From Acidobacteriota bacterium (GTDB lineage Bacteria > Acidobacteriota > Holophagae > Holophagales > Holophagaceae): a stretch of DNA of 64,000 nt. A program made the translations under genes and the position numbers. The stretch's first letter is position 1. Each line of letters opens with the position of its first letter. The stretch spans positions 1-64,000 of the forward strand of contig JACPYP010000007.1 in NCBI GenBank assembly GCA_016195985.1, in the 5' to 3' direction. The notes beneath the pieces were generated by a model, which saw only the letters and a list, made by a program, of their open reading frames with translations, made no database searches and was not told the DNA's origin. This document shows positions 11,435-20,435 of this stretch, piece by piece.

Positions 11435-11944
11435 TCACGTCAGCCGCGTCGAAGCCGCCACCGTCGCGGCGGTGTTCACCACGAGGAAGCCCCCCTGAGT
11501 GGGCTCCGTGACGGCGAAGTGGACCAGGGGCTGGGTGGCGGGCCCCACCAGGTTCGCGCCGCCCAGATCGTATTGGCTGCCGTGGCAAGGGCAGGTGATC
11601 TTGCTGTCCGCAGGGGCCCCCACGATGCAGCCCATGTGGGTGCACACCGCGGTCATGGCGTAGATGCCGCCGGCATCCTTGACGAGGAAGAAGTTCCCCA
11701 GGTTCCGGTAGTCCCGGACGGTGCCATCCGGCGCGGCCAGCAGGTTGGCCTTGTTGTCGGTGGTGGTGAGCGGTCCCGCCGGGGGAGGGGCCGGAGCCGG
11801 CGTGGAGGCGCCGCCGCCCCCGCCTCCGCAGGCCAGGACCAGCCCGGCGGCCAGGGTTCCCAGGCAGAAGGCGCGGCGGTCGACACCCTCAGGCGCCGGC
11901 TGGGAATGAAGTGGGTGGGAATGAACGGAATCGGGCTGATGCAC
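11435..11944 (-). CDS. Rieske [2Fe-2S] lipoprotein
   Basis: 169 residues. The two Rieske cluster motifs are CTHMGC and CPCHGSQYD, providing the two Cys and two His ligands. The N-terminus has DRRAFCLGTLAAGLVLACGGG, a hydrophobic leader with a lipobox-like LVLAC followed by Gly-rich and Ala/Pro-rich linkers, so the domain is probably tethered outside the inner membrane. GTG at 11944 is preferred to the ATG at 12001 because GGAGG lies five bases upstream. No cytochrome b partner is nearby, so it is more likely a stand-alone electron carrier than part of a bc complex. Confidence 0.88.
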   Translation of the reverse strand: MHQPDSVHSHPLHSQPAPEGVDRRAFCLGTLAAGLVLACGGGGGGASTPAPAPPPAGPLTTTDNKANLLAAPDGTVRDYRNLGNFFLVKDAGGIYAMTAVCTHMGCIVGAPADSKITCPCHGSQYDLGGANLVGPATQPLVHFAVTEPTQGGFLVVNTAATVAASTRLT

Positions 11945-12052
11945 GGAACCTCCACGGGCAGATGGCCCCCATGCCAGGGGGTGTCCCACCTTCCCCTTCA
12001 AGGGGACGGGCCGCCAGATCCGGTTTGGCGATTCCCACCCCTCCGGACCGGA

Positions 12053-14203
12053 TCAGATCCGGGAGGTTCCGCCGCCGCCGGCGGCGATCAACTTCAGGAT
12101 CTCCACCACCTCGGCAGCGGACTGGGGGCGCTGGTCCTGGCGCTTCTGCATCAGCCGCCGGACCAGGGCCGCGAGATCCGGAGCGGCCTCCGAAAGGGCC
12201 GGAATGGGCGCCTCCAGGTGCATCCGCAGCAGGTCGTTGATGCGGGGGCTGTCGTAGGGCGCCAGGCCGGAGCAGAGTTCGTACAGCATGACGCCCAGGG
12301 CGTAGAGATCGCTGCGCGCGTCCACGGCCTCGCCCATGATCTGCTCCGGCGACATGTAGCGCGGCGAGCCGAGCAACATCCCCGGTTCCCCGGCGTCCGC
12401 GGCCGCCGTGGGCGCGGCCAGGCCGAAATCCATGATCCTGACGTCGCCCCGCACATCGAACAGCACGTTGCCCGGCTTGATGTCACGGTGGACCACGCCC
12501 ACCGCGTGGGCCGCCTCCAATCCCTCGGCCACCTGCCGGGCAATGCGCAGGGCCAGTTGCATCGGCAGCCGCCCGCGGCCATCCAGCAGGTTCCGCAGCG
12601 TGATGCCCTTCAGGAATTCCATGGTCACGAAGGGAATGCCGCCGGATTCGCCGAAATCATGGGTGCGCAGCACGTAGCGGTGGGTGATCTTCCGGGCCAG
12701 GCGGATCTCCCGCTTGAGCATGTCCAGGTAGGCGGGGTTGGCCGCGAGGTCCGGCCGCACCACCTTCAGGGCCACCTCCTCGTCCAGATGCAGGTCGTGG
12801 ACCCTGAGCACCACGCCCATGCCGCCGCGCCCCAGCAGCCCCTCCACCCGGTAGCGCTCCGCGAAAACCATCCCTTCACGAAGGGAAGCCGGCAGCGCCT
12901 CGCCGACCCCCCCCGCGGGAACGGCCACGAGATGCTGAGTCGCATCGTCACGCTCGGTTTGGATCCCGCCCCCTTCCCCGGCCCCGGGCTCTGCGCCCGC
13001 CCGCGCCCTCTGCGCCGATTCCAGCAGGGCCAGCAGGTCATCCTTGGCCCGCAGTTCCGCCAGCATGGATTTGAACGTCCGTGTGAGCACGCCCACCTCG
13101 TCGGCCGTGGGTTCGATGGCCAGCGTTTCGGGCACCCCTCCCTCGGCCAGGGCCTGGGTGGCGGAGGCCAGCGCATTCAAGGGGGCCGTCACCTTCCGGG
13201 CCGAATGGAGGCTCAGCCCCAGGGCGATGAACAGCCCCACCAGGCCCACCGCCAAGATGGCCCGCTGCAGGTTGCGGAAGGGCGCCAAAAGAGGGTCCAT
13301 GGGCATCAGCAGCACTTCCGCCATTTCCAGATCCAGGGCATTGACGCCCCGCAGCGGAGAAACCATCCCGAGGTAGTTCCGGCCGTCCATTCGGAAGCGC
13401 AGCACGTCGGAAATCTGGCCGTCGAGCACCTGGGCCCGCACCGCCAGGAAGGCCGGCTCCCGGGCCAGGAGGCGGTCCAGGTGCTCCGCCTCGGACAGGG
13501 TGCTGCCCAGGGTTCGGAACTGGCTGAGCAGGGCCAGGTGGGCGGAGGGATCGCCCCGCTGGGGGCCGGCGATGGCCACGCGGCGGAGGTCCGCGGCAGC
13601 GCGATCATCCACCCGGACGCCCACCAGCATGGCTCCCAGCGGCCGCCCGCCGGGGGAGCGCAGGGGCCGGGCCACCGCATGGTAGATGCCGGGCCGGTCG
13701 CCCCAGTCCACGCGGAGGAAGCCGCGGTAGTAGGGCCCCCCGTGCCCCTCGGCCTTGGCCTCATCCGGAGCCAGGGCCATCTGGAGGATGCCCGCCTCGG
13801 GCAAGGCCGGGCGCGGGTTCCTGGACGTGCAGGCCAGCACCTGGCCGTCGGGCCGGACCACCAGGGCGATCTCAGCGCTCAGGCGGGGCAGGTTCTCGGC
13901 CAGCGCGTCGGCGAGGCTCGTGGAGGCGCCCATCTCCAGCGACCGCTCCACCAGGGCCACGTTGCCGGAGTACTGCGTGAAGACCTCCAGGCCGCCATCC
14001 ATGGACCGCGCCTGCTGCTCGAAGGCCCGGTCCAGGACGTAGGCGCCCGCCGAGAGGCTGGCCTTGGCCGAAGCCTTCGCGCCGCTTTCAGCCTCGCGGT
14101 AGGCCACGAAGAGGATAATGGCAAGGAGGCCCAGGATGGCCGCGGCCTGGCGCGTGAAGAAGGTCCAGGCCAGCGTCTGGTACCAGCTCATGGTGGGCTG
14201 CAT
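12053..14203 (-). CDS. Membrane sensor HAMP Ser/Thr protein kinase
   Basis: About 716 residues with an architecture normally seen in histidine kinases but ending in a eukaryotic-like kinase. TM1 is about residues 18-34, an extracytoplasmic sensor region about 35-309, TM2 about 310-333 and HAMP about 334-385 (KVTAPLNALASAT). After a linker comes a Pkn2/PknB-type kinase (about 447-705). Kinase motifs are complete: GRGGMGVV P-loop, VALKVV lysine, VVHRDIKPGN catalytic loop, DFGL and SPEQ. ATG 14203 is chosen because AAGAGG precedes it and TM1 follows at once. It is divergent from the cupredoxin gene with a 46-base gap, so that protein or its redox partners may be related to the stimulus (inference). 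Confidence 0.92.
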   Translation of the reverse strand: MQPTMSWYQTLAWTFFTRQAAAILGLLAIILFVAYREAESGAKASAKASLSAGAYVLDRAFEQQARSMDGGLEVFTQYSGNVALVERSLEMGASTSLADALAENLPRLSAEIALVVRPDGQVLACTSRNPRPALPEAGILQMALAPDEAKAEGHGGPYYRGFLRVDWGDRPGIYHAVARPLRSPGGRPLGAMLVGVRVDDRAAADLRRVAIAGPQRGDPSAHLALLSQFRTLGSTLSEAEHLDRLLAREPAFLAVRAQVLDGQISDVLRFRMDGRNYLGMVSPLRGVNALDLEMAEVLLMPMDPLLAPFRNLQRAILAVGLVGLFIALGLSLHSARKVTAPLNALASATQALAEGGVPETLAIEPTADEVGVLTRTFKSMLAELRAKDDLLALLESAQRARAGAEPGAGEGGGIQTERDDATQHLVAVPAGGVGEALPASLREGMVFAERYRVEGLLGRGGMGVVLRVHDLHLDEEVALKVVRPDLAANPAYLDMLKREIRLARKITHRYVLRTHDFGESGGIPFVTMEFLKGITLRNLLDGRGRLPMQLALRIARQVAEGLEAAHAVGVVHRDIKPGNVLFDVRGDVRIMDFGLAAPTAAADAGEPGMLLGSPRYMSPEQIMGEAVDARSDLYALGVMLYELCSGLAPYDSPRINDLLRMHLEAPIPALSEAAPDLAALVRRLMQKRQDQRPQSAAEVVEILKLIAAGGGGTSRI

Positions 14204-14249: not shown

Positions 14250-14924
14250 ATGCCGCGCATGATACGAGCCTTCGCTTGGGGATTGTTCCTCGCCGCGCCG
14301 CTGGCCGCGGGCGGACTGGAAGGCCCCGTGCTGCTCCACGAGAAGAACGGAGGCCTGCGCGCCTCGCTGGAGGACTGCGTGGCCCTGCTGGAACCCGTGG
14401 ATGTGGCGCTGCCGCCTGCCGGACCTTCCCGGCCCCTCAGCATCCGGACCCTGGGCAAGCAGTTCAGCCCCCGCGTCTCCATCGCCACGCCGGGCACGGA
14501 GGTGTCCTTCCCCAACCTGGACCACATCCTCCACAACGTCTTCAGCGTCACCCAGGGCAACCGCTTCGACACGGGCCACTACAAACCTGGCGACAGCCCC
14601 AAAGTGAAGGTGGCGAACCCCGGCCTGGTGAAGCTCTACTGCAACGTGCACCACCAAATGAACGCCTTTCTATGGGTGGTGACCACCCCCTTCGCCCAGG
14701 TGCTGGGCGGCCGGACCGGCCTGCGCTTTGAGCGGGTGCCCGAAGGCACGTACCGGCTGCGGCTCTGGCATCCCGAATGCGGCGAACGCGCCTGGGTGGT
14801 GAAAGTGGGAGCGGGCATCACCCAGGGCCGCTGGGATCTCGATCTGTCCCTGCCTCCCGTGGAGGCCCACAAGAACAAATTCGGCCGCGACTACGCGCCC
14901 CCGGCCGACGAGCGGAACTATTAA
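14250..14924 (+). CDS. Secreted cupredoxin-domain protein
   Basis: About 224 residues. A short signal peptide (FAWGLFLAAPLAAG) is followed by a region beginning GPVLLHEKNGGLRASLEDCVALLE and a plastocyanin-like domain. The type 1 copper ligands look present: His in DHILHNVFS, then the cluster Y-C-N-V-H-H-Q-M, matching the Cys-His-Met loop. A C-terminal carboxypeptidase-regulatory-like strand pattern follows (VPEGTYRLRLWHP). Related proteins are annotated as methylamine-utilisation or plastocyanin-like. The gene is divergent from the sensor kinase and convergent with the outer-membrane protein gene. Starts at 14250 and 14259 are both possible; neither has a strong ribosome-binding site. Confidence 0.85.
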   Translation: MPRMIRAFAWGLFLAAPLAAGGLEGPVLLHEKNGGLRASLEDCVALLEPVDVALPPAGPSRPLSIRTLGKQFSPRVSIATPGTEVSFPNLDHILHNVFSVTQGNRFDTGHYKPGDSPKVKVANPGLVKLYCNVHHQMNAFLWVVTTPFAQVLGGRTGLRFERVPEGTYRLRLWHPECGERAWVVKVGAGITQGRWDLDLSLPPVEAHKNKFGRDYAPPADERNY

Positions 14925-15015: not shown

Positions 15016-16077
15016 TCAGAACCGCTTCTTCAGCACGAGCATGCGGCGGACGACCTGCTGGGACTCCCCGTCGAACCTCTGGCGGAGGATGCTGAACGTG
15101 GCGATCCAGTTGCCCGGAAGCGGCATGGCCAGTTCCAGCCTCGGGCCCCGCGCCCTCCGGTAGTACCACCACTCATCGCCGTTGACGGGGTAGAGCGTGC
15201 CGGTGGAGGAAAGGCGCTGCCATGTAAGCGCCAGTTGAGGCCAGTAGAGGCGCTCCCGCCCGCCCGCGAGGAGCTGGGCTTCCTCGCTGGTTTCGCCGCT
15301 CTCCCGGTTCTTCGCGCCGGACCACCGGATTTCCACGGGCAGGCGGCCATGCCACTTGACGGCGGCCCCGGCCTCATCGAGCGCCAGCACCTGCCGCGAC
15401 GCCGGATCATGGCCCGGCAGGCGGCGCAGCCGCTCCTCCCCCGGCTCCCAGGAGAGCTGCCAGCGCCCGGCGTGGGCGGTCCACGACCAGGGTCCCGCGT
15501 CGATTTTCAGCACCAGCTGTCCCGCAGCCAGGTCGGCCTTTCCCCCGAGCACCTCCCGCACCCGCCCCGCCACGCCGCGCAGGCTGGCCTCCTGAAGGAC
15601 GCCCTGGGGGCTACGAAAGCCGGCCCTCGCGCCCAGCCCCAGCAGACGCAGATCCTGGTCCCAGATGGCCTGGGAGGACAAGAGGCCATTCTCCTGGAAG
15701 CCCAGCCGCAGATCGCCGAAGGCCCGCTCCGAAGCCCAGAAAGCTTCGCCCTGGGCCAGGTCCAGCTGGCTGCCGTTGGAAGGCTGCTGGTCCCACCGCG
15801 GCCCATTGAACCGGTTTCCGTCGGAACCCATCGCCGAGCGGGTCCCCGCCACGAAGCGCAGGCCTTCCCCTTCCCAGGCCCATCGCAAACGCCATTGGAG
15901 CCCAGCCCGCTGGAACCGCTCCGAGGGTTCGCCGGGATCGCTCAGCTGGTCGCCCCGCAGCGTCAATTCCCACGCGGGTTGCCAGGGGTTGACCGGCTCC
16001 TGCGCAAAGGGCGTTTCCTGACCGGAAGCCAGGCAGCTGAGGAGGGCGGCAAACCAGCGTCGAAACGGCATCTTCAT
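15016..16077 (-). CDS. Predicted outer-membrane beta-barrel protein, unknown function
   Basis: About 353 residues. It starts MKMPFRRWFAALLSCLASGQ, a plausible signal peptide, and continues with alternating hydrophobic/polar strands rich in Trp, Arg and Gly (LQWRLRWAWEGEGLRF, DLRLGFQENGLLSSQ). It ends in VLKKRF, a C-terminal phenylalanine typical of barrel proteins recognised by Bam. No family was recognised. ATG 16077 is used because it opens the leader; the frame is open further upstream to 16266 but that part overlaps the leader region of the divergent gene. It is convergent with the cupredoxin gene, and a shared role is possible but not shown. Confidence 0.7.
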   Translation of the reverse strand: MKMPFRRWFAALLSCLASGQETPFAQEPVNPWQPAWELTLRGDQLSDPGEPSERFQRAGLQWRLRWAWEGEGLRFVAGTRSAMGSDGNRFNGPRWDQQPSNGSQLDLAQGEAFWASERAFGDLRLGFQENGLLSSQAIWDQDLRLLGLGARAGFRSPQGVLQEASLRGVAGRVREVLGGKADLAAGQLVLKIDAGPWSWTAHAGRWQLSWEPGEERLRRLPGHDPASRQVLALDEAGAAVKWHGRLPVEIRWSGAKNRESGETSEEAQLLAGGRERLYWPQLALTWQRLSSTGTLYPVNGDEWWYYRRARGPRLELAMPLPGNWIATFSILRQRFDGESQQVVRRMLVLKKRF

Positions 16078-16259
16078 CCGGAAGGGGTTTTGTGGATGGT
16101 AGCCCCACGGCGCTCTGGCGCGAAGGCGAGCGGCACCGGAGGGGCGGCCAATTCCTAACCGGATCTGGCGGGAAATGCTCCCGGGGCGAAGCTGGCGGAA
16201 CCGGAGAGGTCCGGAAACCCCGCAGGGGATTGGCTCGCCGAGGCGGGCGGGAGGACACC

Positions 16260-17435
16260 ATGCCACGCATCATCCACCAACGGGTTTCCAGCTTCCTTCC
16301 GGGCTCGCCGCTGCGGCGGGCGGGCCTGTCCGCCGGAGTCGCCCTGCTCATGTGGTTGGGGGCCTGCGGCGGCGGAGGCGGGGGGTCCGCCAGCGCGCCG
16401 CCCTCGGCTCCGCCTCCCGCGCCCGCCTTCCAGATCACCAACCTGGTGTCCGACCAGGCCACGGTCGCGGCCGCCACCACGGACGCCAACCTGGTGAACC
16501 CCTGGGGCCTCGCTTACGGGCCGGCCACGGATTTCTGGGTGGCCAACCAGGCCACCGCCACCACCACGGCCTATGACGGGCTGGGCCACATGCCCGCCTC
16601 GCCCCTGGTGGTTTCCAGCCCTTCCCTGCCGGGCCACACCATGGGCGGCCCCACCGGCGTCGTCTACAACGGCTCCGCCGGCTTCATGGGAGATCAGTTC
16701 ATCCTCGCCTCGCTGGATGGATGCCTCTGCGGCTGGAGCGCCGGAACCACCACCACGCGCCGGGTGGGCAGCTCCGCTTCGTCCGCGGTCTACACGGGGC
16801 TGGCCATCGGGACGAGCGGCACCGCCACGTATCTCTACGCCGCCAACTTCACCGGCGGCACCATCGATGTCTTCGACTCGGCCTACGCCCCCGCGAGCCT
16901 GGGCGCCTCCGCCCTGGTGGACCCCACCCTGCCCGCGGACTTCTCGCCGTTCAACGTCCAGGCCCTGGGCGGCAAGCTGTACGTCACCTACGCCAAGCGC
17001 GCGCCCGCCGCCCTGCGCGAAACCACGGGAGCGGGGCTGGGCTACGTGAGCCTCTTCAACCTGGACGGCAGTTTCGTGCGCCGGGTGGCTTCGGCCGGAG
17101 CGCTCAACGCCCCCTGGGGCCTGGCCCTGGCCCCGGCCAGCTTCGGCCCCTTCAGCGGCGCGCTGCTGGTGGGCAACTTCGGCGATGGCCGCATCACCGC
17201 TTTCGATGCCGCCACGGGCGCGCAGCTGGGGCAGCTGTCGAATGCCAGCAGCGTTCCGCTGTCCATCGGCGGCCTGTGGGGCCTGGCCTTCGGCAATGAC
17301 GCCGGCGCCGGAAAATCCGCCCAACTCTACGTGACGGCGGGCCCGCAGGGAGAAACCCACGGCCTCTTCGCCACCATCAGCTACGGCGCCCCCAGCGGCG
17401 GCACGGGCGGGCCCGGCGGCGGCGGTGGATACTGA
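16260..17435 (+). CDS. TIGR03118-type secreted lipoprotein
   Basis: 391 residues. The signal peptide ends in a lipobox-like WLGACGG and a Gly/Ser/Pro linker follows. The body matches the TIGR03118 family of unknown function: NLVSDQATVAAATTDANLVNPWGLAYGP, WVANQATATTTAYDG, then SPFNVQALGGKLYVTYA and NAPWGLALAP. The repeated G-L-A/NPWG pattern suggests an NHL/SMP-30-like beta-propeller. It ends in a Gly-rich tail (GGTGGPGGGGGY). ATG 16260 has GGGAGGAC five bases upstream, so the open frame back to 16092 is not used. No catalytic residues can be named. Confidence 0.85.
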   Translation: MPRIIHQRVSSFLPGSPLRRAGLSAGVALLMWLGACGGGGGGSASAPPSAPPPAPAFQITNLVSDQATVAAATTDANLVNPWGLAYGPATDFWVANQATATTTAYDGLGHMPASPLVVSSPSLPGHTMGGPTGVVYNGSAGFMGDQFILASLDGCLCGWSAGTTTTRRVGSSASSAVYTGLAIGTSGTATYLYAANFTGGTIDVFDSAYAPASLGASALVDPTLPADFSPFNVQALGGKLYVTYAKRAPAALRETTGAGLGYVSLFNLDGSFVRRVASAGALNAPWGLALAPASFGPFSGALLVGNFGDGRITAFDAATGAQLGQLSNASSVPLSIGGLWGLAFGNDAGAGKSAQLYVTAGPQGETHGLFATISYGAPSGGTGGPGGGGGY

Positions 17436-17499
17436 TGCTTCTGCGGCTTGACGGGGCCCCTTGCCCCCCGGATGCTGAACCTCCATCGGGAGCCTGATT

Positions 17500-18987
17500 T
17501 TGAGTGGTTGGGATCTTGCCATCGCGCTGGACCGAGAGAGCCGGGAACCGCTCTACCTCCAGCTGGTGAAAGCCATCGAGGAGGGCATCCGCCACGGGCG
17601 CTTCAAGCCTGGGGATGCCCTCCCGGGCACCCGGGGCCTGGCCGAGCTTTTAGGCGTCAACCGCAACACCACGCTGGCCGCCTACAAGGAACTGGAAGCC
17701 GAGGGCTGGATCGAGGTGGCTCCGGACCGGGGCACCTTCGTGGCCCGGAAACTGCCCTTCGTGGTGGATGTCCCCGCGGGCATCACCGCTCAGGATTCGG
17801 CCTCCTGGAAGCGGGCCACGCCCCGCAACGGAGCCTTCTTCCAGCCCGGCGCCCCGGCCCTGGAATCCTTCCAGCTCATCCCCGATGCCACGGACCTGAG
17901 GATGGCCCCGACAGAAGCCATCCACCGGGCCTACGGCAGGGTGCTGAAACGGCATCCGGAACGTCTGCTTCAGCCGGGCTGGGATCCCCGCGGCCTCCTG
18001 GACCTGCGCGACTCCCTCTGCAAGATGCTGCGCGACATGCGCGGGCTCACCGTGGAAACGGGCAACCTCGTGCTCACCCGCGGCCTCATGAGCACCTTGA
18101 ACCTCGTGTCGCGGGTGCTCTTCGCCCCCGGCGATGCGGTCGCCGTGGAGAACCCCGGCCAGTTCCGGGTGGCCGAAGCCTTCCGTGCCGCCGGGGCCCG
18201 GCTCTTCGCCGTGCCCGTGGATGGCAAGGGCCTCGACGTGGGGGCCCTGGAGGCTCTGCTCATCCAGGAACCCCTCCGCCTGCTCTACCTCACAGCCAGC
18301 CCCCAGCATCCCACCCAGGTGGCCTTGGATCCCGTGCGGCGCGGGCGCCTGCTGGAGCTTTCCCGCGTCCATGGTTTCCGCATCCTGGAGGGCGACCCCA
18401 GCCTGGGCTTCCACCGCGAAAAAAATCCCGGACTGCCCCTGGCGAGCGAGGATCCCCACGGGCGCGTCCTCTACTTCAGCAGCTTCGAGCAGATCCTCGC
18501 GCCGGGCCTCCAGGTGGGCTTCCTGGCGGGAGAGGCCAACCTCATCAAGGCCCTGGCCCAGCAACGGCAGCTGGTGGATTGGCCCGGCAACCTGGTGCAG
18601 GAAGCCACCATCGAAGAGACGCTGCGCGATGGCGAGATCGCCCGCCACCTCCGGCGCATCCGCAAGCTGACCGAAGAACGGCGCGAAAGCATGGTGGACC
18701 GCCTGCTGCTCCACCTCCATCCGGCCATCTCGGTGCGGAACCCCAGGGAAGGGCTGTCTCTCTGGCTCCGGGTGGCCGAGGACGTGCCCCTGGATGCCTG
18801 GATCGAGTGCTGCCGCGCCCGCGGCGTGGTCGTCTACCCGGGCAGCCTCTACGACCTGCACCGCCGGACCCTCCCCCACATCTGCCTGGGCTTCGCCGCC
18901 CACGACCTCGACGAGCAGAACGAGGCCTGCGCCCGAATGGCCCTGGCCCTGCAGGATGCCCGCCGGGGGAGAGCCTGTTCCACCTGA
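17500..18987 (+). CDS. MocR-like GntR regulator with degenerate PLP site
   Basis: 495 residues: an N-terminal GntR winged helix (about 15-82: PLYLQLVKAIEEGIRHG, LPGTRGLAELLGVNRNT) and an aminotransferase-fold domain (about 115-480). MocR/GabR regulators bind PLP through a lysine in a SFSKxLxP motif. Here it reads S-F-E-Q-I-L-A-P-G-L-Q, so the lysine is Gln331 and the phosphate-binding arginine that follows is Gln338. The E-D-D-Y motif is E-G-D-P. PLP binding is therefore unlikely while the fold is kept. TTG at 17500 is used, with GGGAG seven bases upstream. It precedes the cytochrome c gene by 50 bases in the same direction. Confidence 0.9.
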   Translation: MSGWDLAIALDRESREPLYLQLVKAIEEGIRHGRFKPGDALPGTRGLAELLGVNRNTTLAAYKELEAEGWIEVAPDRGTFVARKLPFVVDVPAGITAQDSASWKRATPRNGAFFQPGAPALESFQLIPDATDLRMAPTEAIHRAYGRVLKRHPERLLQPGWDPRGLLDLRDSLCKMLRDMRGLTVETGNLVLTRGLMSTLNLVSRVLFAPGDAVAVENPGQFRVAEAFRAAGARLFAVPVDGKGLDVGALEALLIQEPLRLLYLTASPQHPTQVALDPVRRGRLLELSRVHGFRILEGDPSLGFHREKNPGLPLASEDPHGRVLYFSSFEQILAPGLQVGFLAGEANLIKALAQQRQLVDWPGNLVQEATIEETLRDGEIARHLRRIRKLTEERRESMVDRLLLHLHPAISVRNPREGLSLWLRVAEDVPLDAWIECCRARGVVVYPGSLYDLHRRTLPHICLGFAAHDLDEQNEACARMALALQDARRGRACST

Positions 18988-19037: not shown

Positions 19038-19484
19038 ATGAATTCCGCTGGTCTCCGCTTCGGCCTTTTCATCCTGATCCACGCCCTTATCGGCGCCGGG
19101 ACCGCCACAACGGCGCGGACCCAGCCTCCGGGTCAAACGCGTTCTCCGGGGGGACGCTCCCTGGGTGAACTCCAAGCCTTCTACCAGCAGAACTGCGCGC
19201 GGTGCCACGGGACCGATGGATCCTCCCGCAGTCCCGAGGGCAAGCGGCTGGCTGGATCGGACTTTACCAAGGCCGCCCGGGCCTTCCGCGACGCGCCGGG
19301 GCCCGCCGCCGACCGGGAGATCCAGGCCATGGCGCGGACCATTCTCAAAGGCCTGTTCTTCGGCATCACCATGCCCGGCTGGAAGGACGAACTCAGCCCC
19401 GACGAAGCCACGCGGATGGTCAAAGAAGTGCTCCTCCAGGCCGAACGGGGGCGCGTGATCCAGCCCGAGAACGAAGCGCATTGA
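19038..19484 (+). CDS. Small secreted c-type cytochrome
   Basis: 148 residues. The N-terminal hydrophobic leader is FGLFILIHALIGAGTA. One haem-binding site CARCHG follows LQAFYQQN near residue 55, and a distal methionine candidate lies in GITMPGWKDELSPDEA, the usual class I cytochrome c ending. GGAAGG precedes ATG 19038. It lies 50 bases after the MocR-like gene and is convergent with the LysR gene. The electron donor and acceptor are unknown. Confidence 0.9.
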   Translation: MNSAGLRFGLFILIHALIGAGTATTARTQPPGQTRSPGGRSLGELQAFYQQNCARCHGTDGSSRSPEGKRLAGSDFTKAARAFRDAPGPAADREIQAMARTILKGLFFGITMPGWKDELSPDEATRMVKEVLLQAERGRVIQPENEAH

Positions 19485-19511: not shown

Positions 19512-20435
19512 TCAGCGCGGTTCCCGCAGGGCCTGGATGATCAGGTTCCTCAGATGGCTCAAGGCGGGATCCAGATGGGTCCTTTCGTGCCAGCCCAGAC
19601 CCACAGCATAGGTGGGCGAGGGAAAGGGCGGACGGAGGATCTTGAGGCCCAACAGGTCGCCCAAGGCCCGCGCGAAGCGAAGGGGCAATCGCGCCACGGC
19701 GTCCGAAGCGGCCGCTGCATGGGCGGCCGACAGGAAATGGGGAAGCACGAGGCCCAGGCGCCGGCTGAGCCCCTGCGCCTTCAAAGTGCGTTCCAGCGCC
19801 AGGCTGCCCGTGCCGCCGCCCTTCATCACATGCACCTCGATGTGGCGCAGGGCTTCAAATTGGCGCCGGCTGAGGGTGGTCCCTTGGATGACGGGATGGC
19901 CGCGCCGGACCGCGAAAACGACCTTCTCCTGGTAGAGGGCCTGCAGGCGCAACCCCGGCGCCCGAACCTCCATGGGCAGAAGAAAGAGATCCACGTCGGC
20001 CTTGGACACCCCGCCCTCTGCCAGCAGGCGATCCACGGGCACCACTTCCAGGGTGGCCAAGGGCAGAGCCTCCGCGAAGCGTTCCATGACCCGGGGCAGA
20101 TCCGAAACCTCCTGATCATCGGTGCAGGAAAGGGTGAAGCGCCGGGTGCAGAGAGCCGGATCGAAGCGCCGTCCCAGCTGAAGCAAGTCCTCGAACTGGG
20201 ACAGGGCGCGGCTGATCGATGGCGCGACGGCCGTGGCCGCGGGTGTGGGAGCCATGCCCCGCCCCGATCGGACGAACAGGGGGTCGCCCAGGGCCTCCCG
20301 CAGCCGAGCCAGGGCATTGCTCACGGCGGACTGGGTGAGGTTCAACCGGTGCGCGGCATGGGTCGCGCTGCGCGCCTCCATGACCGCTTGGAAGACGACG
20401 AAAAGGTTCAGGTCGAGGGAGGATATATTTTTCAT
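19512..20435 (-). CDS. LysR-family transcriptional regulator
   Basis: 307 residues, the typical family length. The N-terminal winged helix-turn-helix (LDLNLFVVFQAVMEARSATHAAHRL, then NLTQSAVSNALARLREALGDPLFVR) resembles the NodD/LeuO-like branch that opens S-L-D-L-N-L. A periplasmic-binding-protein-like effector domain follows. It is divergent from a frameshifted amidohydrolase gene 75 bases away; in this family a divergent neighbour is usually a target. A long inverted repeat covers its own start codon, suggesting self-repression. Confidence 0.93.
   Translation of the reverse strand: MKNISSLDLNLFVVFQAVMEARSATHAAHRLNLTQSAVSNALARLREALGDPLFVRSGRGMAPTPAATAVAPSISRALSQFEDLLQLGRRFDPALCTRRFTLSCTDDQEVSDLPRVMERFAEALPLATLEVVPVDRLLAEGGVSKADVDLFLLPMEVRAPGLRLQALYQEKVVFAVRRGHPVIQGTTLSRRQFEALRHIEVHVMKGGGTGSLALERTLKAQGLSRRLGLVLPHFLSAAHAAAASDAVARLPLRFARALGDLLGLKILRPPFPSPTYAVGLGWHERTHLDPALSHLRNLIIQALREPR

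Follow-up and report, generated by a model that had tools for sequence, protein, structure and literature searches.

Lysine-less MocR-type regulators and their predicted direct-repeat operator in Holophagaceae

Regulators of the MocR family normally sense signals via vitamin B6. The literature treats the family as PLP-dependent, with one survey reporting the lysine in all members (PMC2018728), and in the open-access literature searched, we found no report of a natural MocR that lacks this lysine or functions independently of PLP. Among variants with the lysine replaced, EnuR K302H of Ruegeria pomeroyi no longer holds PLP and represses constitutively (PMC8739950), but MpaR K314A loses activity, K314 being needed (PMC10790758). 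MocR dimers are proposed to bind direct repeats in a head-to-tail arrangement, and the operators of the family typically consist of such repeats; apo-PdxR prefers direct repeats and holo-PdxR inverted ones (PMC5320631).

Here, we analyzed a 64,000-nucleotide stretch of Holophagaceae DNA (the window) in which a MocR-type regulator of 495 amino acids without the PLP lysine is encoded at 17500–18987 on the forward strand. The gene starts with TTG (TTG, GTG or ATG at the same start in the orthologs) and combines an N-terminal GntR winged helix-turn-helix domain (PF00392, residues 18–81, E 5e-16, Pfam) with a C-terminal aminotransferase fold type I domain (PF00155 Aminotran_1_2, residues 162–479, Pfam). 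Thus, the earlier note on this DNA, which described the reading frame and the DNA-binding domain as intact, was correct on both points, as well as on the start and the coordinates. The structure prediction and comparison with GabR proposed in the same note yielded a GabR/PdxR-like fold: the AF2 monomer model, with a mean pLDDT of only 70, has GabR as its best structural match (E 7e-30) and also matches PdxR, with VIA Z values of 31–36 against GabR, PdxR and KAT-II-like enzymes. The closest NCBIfam model is that of PdxR, but the protein does not reach the equivalog cut-off of this model (275.5 against 320 bits), nor that of GabR (134.8 against 600 bits). By architecture, the protein fits the MocR/GabR subfamily of GntR regulators.

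Alignments locate a degenerate PLP-lysine motif, FEQILAPGLQ, at 18484–18513 on the forward strand, in which Gln331 (18490–18492) replaces the Schiff-base lysine, Gln338 (18511–18513) replaces the phosphate arginine and Glu330 (18487–18489) replaces a serine. The original reading of the family motif as SFEQILAPGLQ, with the lysine and arginine changed to glutamine, and of EDDY as EGDP is confirmed by alignment. The count of three lost cofactor residues given with it, however, understates a loss that is itself real, as at least eight contacts are replaced in the alignment: the cup Ser/Ala by Leu196, the cup Gln by Met197, the stacking Tyr by Gln221, the pyridine Asp by Gly298, a Tyr by Pro300 and, within the motif, Ser, Lys and Arg by Glu330, Gln331 and Gln338. 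In addition, the substrate arginine, present in 68/68 of the lysine-bearing MocRs that served as the reference for the pocket and that come nearly all from the same bacterial family, is Cys462 in the window protein.

Orthologs with 59–88% identity were detected in 41/77 Holophagaceae genomes searched, in five genus groups, whereas no regulator in this identity range was found in other families among 247 Acidobacteriota genomes. The lineage carrying the lysine-less regulator consists of soil and sediment bacteria. In a phylogenetic tree built with the cofactor columns masked, the orthologs form a well-supported, monophyletic clade on a long stem.

Phylogenetic footprinting, by alignment of the intergenic region between the porin gene and the TIGR03118/mocR side in the relatives, identified an element, CAGATCCGGT-N15-C(A/C)TCCGGT, that is strictly kept between these divergent genes. 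The resulting predicted operator, CAG(A/G)TCCGGT-N15-C(A/C)TCCGGT, consists of two direct repeats with a constant 23-bp period. In the window, it is located at 16134–16168 on the reverse strand (CCAGATCCGGT-N15-CCTCCGGTG). A perfect match to the pattern, spanning 16135–16164, occurs here and nowhere else in the 4.26 Mb genome. A second predicted operator, with one mismatch in the pattern, which is matched at 12018–12047, lies at 12014–12048 (forward strand) just upstream of the Rieske gene, at a position kept in relatives; as a group, the one-mismatch matches in this genome are not above the reversed control. The ortholog footprint also includes a conserved mocR promoter, TTGACG-17 bp-GATGCT (17448–17476, forward strand). 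A palindromic operator candidate at the mocR minus-10, GGAT-N4-ATCC, was weak and not conserved, and was rejected.

Among the 77 family genomes scanned, the perfect pattern occurs at 54 sites in 37 genomes, all of which encode the regulator (37/41 regulator-positive against 0/36 regulator-negative genomes; Fisher 1e-17), and the association also holds within the genus (26/30 against 0/17; 2e-9). The control pattern, read backwards, gave nine matches in the same 77 genomes, evenly spread 5 to 4. The pattern has no perfect match in the remaining four regulator-positive genomes. A sequence-only operator model found sites at E <= 2e-4 in 16/16 regulator-positive genomes searched, a result that is partly by construction because sites from part of these genomes went into the model; free of this bias are three regulator-positive genomes without a perfect site, in which sites were likewise found at E <= 2e-4, and nine regulator-negative genomes, with a best E of 0.03–0.56 or no match. 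In several other genera or diverged lineages, the operator lies approximately 70–130 bp upstream of mocR itself. In genus g146, the first repeat has the variant GTCCGGT (instead of ATCCGGT) at nearly all sites, including those away from mocR, as would be expected of a single trans factor reading them. This genus-wide variant is possibly matched by changes in the winged helix-turn-helix. The variant was observed at loci L183, L184, L228–L231 and L233. Judging from these patterns, the element is probably the operator of the lysine-less MocR.

Of the divergent genes next to the window operator, the one on the reverse strand (15016–16077) encodes a 16-strand outer-membrane porin-like protein without a Pfam or NCBIfam family, which is a predicted target based on the upstream operator, co-occurrence, and AF2 and Foldseek analysis. 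The location of the operator upstream of the porin minus-10 weakly hints at activation of the porin, although the distance between the two varies (mostly 23–43 bp) and does not point to one mode of action. The other gene (16260–17435, forward strand; start inferred from the lipoprotein signal) encodes a TIGR03118-family lipoprotein (NCBIfam, 346 bits), also a predicted target, and is possibly co-transcribed with mocR. The predicted target of the second operator is a Rieske [2Fe-2S] lipoprotein (ORF 11435–12001, reverse strand; Pfam PF00355). The conserved neighborhood further includes a cupredoxin-like secreted protein (14259–14924, forward strand), recognized by synteny and by a His/Cys/Met motif identified by eye, for which no Pfam or NCBIfam match was obtained. 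A HAMP-containing membrane Ser/Thr protein kinase, a conserved neighbor in Geothrix, is encoded at 12053–14191, between the two predicted operators.

The Geothrix locus often contains three fixed sites (20-bit cut-off), at about −5.45 kb (Rieske), −1.37 kb (porin/TIGR03118) and +1.5 kb (junction of mocR and the cytochrome c gene). Overall, the operators adjoin genes for Rieske proteins, small c-type cytochromes, DUF2231 membrane proteins, CHRD lipoproteins, cupredoxins and a multicopper oxidase, and a porin gene is also among the genes where they cluster, although some of the sites are orthologs of one another and are therefore not independent counts. Motif tags for five target types were found in 0/172 control windows, which represent the surroundings of MocR paralogs and not a random genome sample. 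In some genomes, the top-scoring operators (47–51 bits) lie beside genes for secreted proteins of 889–913 amino acids (loci L225, L226, L227, L238, L239 and L243), including a multicopper oxidase (L239) and PKD-like repeat proteins (L225 and L238).

Downstream of the regulator, with a gap of 50 bases to its ATG at 19038, as had been noted, lies a gene for a small c-type cytochrome (19038–19484, forward strand; Pfam Cytochrome_CBB3). The proposal that this gene is a target of the regulator is supported in the relatives, in which the cytochrome c is a likely target because operators cluster at cytochrome c, Rieske and other redox genes, but is weakened in the window. An operator directly upstream of the cytochrome gene, at the junction with mocR, was counted in 11/13 loci with a cytochrome c downstream, using a cut-off of our own under which the weakest sites counted, those of L020 (14 bits) and L023 (19.5 bits), fall below 20 bits. 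The two exceptions are L027 and the window; in the window, the gene lacks its own site and may be read through from upstream promoters instead. In the loci without cytochrome c, a junction site is present in one (L024, whose contig ends shortly afterwards), and the rest score below zero. We rejected a constant operon pairing of the cytochrome c gene with mocR because the downstream gene varies (among others, RsmH, GGDEF/EAL proteins and a hybrid kinase).

The porin is distributed almost identically to the regulator (39/41 regulator-positive against 0/36 regulator-negative genomes) and is confined to genomes with the regulator even where the two genes are unlinked. Gain and loss thus affect the module as a unit, and co-occurrence does not point to the regulator in particular; because of this co-inheritance, we only infer which protein reads the operator. 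With the pairing of regulator and operator predicted in this way, the direct repeats could be read by a different transcription factor that is co-inherited with the module. We consider this unlikely, given that the site is found directly upstream of mocR in several genera with differing neighborhoods, that the Geothrix locus has no further conserved regulatory protein except the membrane Ser/Thr kinase, and that the adjacent LysR gene (19512–20435) was not seen as a conserved neighbor.

The window genome encodes ten MocRs, five of which retain the lysine and five of which do not (Gln, His, Arg, Arg and Arg at this site). Among the paralogs, L003, L004, L005 and L006 have Arg, His, Arg and Arg, respectively, in place of the PLP lysine and keep EDD. 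Many more lysine-less MocR paralogs occur across Holophagaceae, and L082, L087, L094 and L095 have an otherwise intact EDDYDGE pocket. In another MocR, L007 (G000:C5:64900–66315), the lysine is kept, the pyridine Asp is lost (EFDP) and the phosphate Arg is replaced by Pro, a half-degenerate pocket common to its relatives L099, L120 and L158. For a single origin of all lysine-less MocRs, p-AU is 0.08. Outside Holophagaceae, no lysine-less MocRs were found in a thin sample of plasmid-borne matches to the window protein and one lysine-less paralog: the lysine is kept in 12/12 of those inspected. The annotation of plasmid homologs, "PLP-dependent aminotransferase family protein," would be misleading if applied to the window protein.

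Given that five lysine-bearing paralogs are available in the same genome and that the active sites of fold type I proteins are at the dimer interface, the window protein could be conceived as the silent half of a heterodimer with one of these paralogs, as SPTLC1 is for SPTLC2. This arrangement appears improbable for a regulator that has its own predicted operator and its own phyletic pattern, and a partial test showed no single lysine-bearing partner to be co-inherited.

The residue losses are common to all 25 orthologs from named genome contigs and to additional ones from whole genomes, and are neither due to chance nor an oddity of a single genome. In the complete collection of 47 sequences from five genera of Holophagaceae, as in the window protein, the Schiff-base lysine of the [ST]-K motif is absent; the search for further members with glutamine at this site, suggested in the earlier note, found Gln in 46/47 and Pro in one (L055). 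The phosphate-Arg site is Gln in 47/47, and in none of the 47 does the pyridine Asp or the phosphate Arg occupy its site. The remaining contacts are changed in parallel: the cup Ser/Ala to Leu, the cup Gln to Met, the stacking Tyr to Gln, Trp or others, the pyridine Asp to Gly (Ala, Leu), the Tyr to Pro or Leu, the Ser to Glu or Asp and the substrate Arg to Cys or Ser. Compared with the 68 lysine-bearing MocRs of mostly the same family, every canonical PLP contact is replaced across the 47 orthologs. The sole invariant lysine of the clade, Lys350, is in the helix after the next strand, presumably away from the active site. From these alignments, we judge the pocket to be rebuilt and not of the PLP type. 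It appears very unlikely that this pocket still holds PLP or a PLP-like molecule without a covalent bond: the fold as a whole is intact, and Pro335, Glu297 and Asp299 are retained, but the pyridine Asp, phosphate Arg, cup Ser and Gln, stacking Tyr, Schiff Lys and substrate Arg have given way to other residues in all 47 orthologs, and a Glu or Asp stands in place of the phosphate-contacting Ser in each of them.

The effector domain is under strong purifying selection, with a dN/dS of 0.03–0.10 in the eight closest pairs and a median of 0.14 overall, and is hence maintained for a purpose other than PLP chemistry. Loss of the key residues of the family might point to a decaying pseudogene copy, a reading that we dropped as practically untenable because the frames are open in 41 genomes and dN/dS is below 0.3 in 276/276 pairs.

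The conservation of the losses, the selection and the co-inherited operator support the view that PLP chemistry would have been lost and a functional regulator retained. We consider it likely that the window protein is a PLP-independent MocR derivative, a dimeric direct-repeat DNA binder controlling a small extracytoplasmic redox/envelope regulon. Under this scenario, the protein would no longer be able to bind PLP, would bind direct-repeat DNA as a dimer, and would be either locked in an equivalent of the apo-state or under the control of a different ligand that occupies the rebuilt pocket; the regulon would include the porin, the TIGR03118 and CHRD lipoproteins, the Rieske protein, c-type cytochromes and cupredoxins. 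A MocR that never carries PLP and acts on an operator made up of direct repeats alone would fit the picture of apo-PdxR. The sign of regulation is not predictable, because EnuR K302H represses constitutively but MpaR K314A loses activity. More tentatively, the rebuilt pocket (Leu196, Met197, Gln221, Gly298, Glu330, Gln331, Gln338 and Cys462) could possibly bind a non-PLP signal, perhaps a redox-linked one, with the regulator as one branch of a radiation of lysine-less MocRs in Holophagaceae.

A natural clade that has dropped the cofactor while retaining the fold, the DNA-binding domain and the selection would make it directly testable whether MocR signal transduction needs PLP or whether the cofactor serves just one type of ligand chemistry, and if a new non-PLP signal is indeed sensed, vitamin B6 would not be required for MocR-type regulation, contrary to the usual definition of the family. 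Furthermore, for Geothrix, which is known for reducing metals, the analysis yields a predicted operator together with a candidate regulon of genes for extracytoplasmic electron transfer.

Among the known systems, the laboratory counterpart is EnuR K302H, a lysine-less MocR that folds, dimerizes and still represses (PMC8739950); it carries a single engineered change, whereas the window protein displays a natural, conserved, wholesale remodeling of the pocket. MpaR of Pseudomonas aeruginosa is a MocR that controls a respiratory gene, ccoN4, and redox genes are among the predicted targets of the window protein as well, but MpaR requires K314 (PMC10790758) and the window protein has no such lysine. 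The structures of PdxR from Bacillus clausii and others are 22–25% identical to the window protein, which, unlike PdxR, has no PLP pocket and no vitamin B6 genes among its predicted targets. GabR of Bacillus subtilis, a MocR-type autorepressor and activator, carries PLP on a lysine and binds GABA by an external aldimine (PDB titles), whereas the window protein lacks the residues needed. GabR and the window protein share the two-domain architecture and the fold, and both loci have a divergently placed target and direct-repeat operators, predicted ones in the window, but identity is 21% and the predicted targets in the window are redox or envelope genes. In SPTLC1-like fold type I proteins, the lysine was likewise lost and function retained; SPTLC1 is an enzyme subunit, whereas the window protein is a predicted DNA-binding regulator, both being lysine-less members of fold type I.
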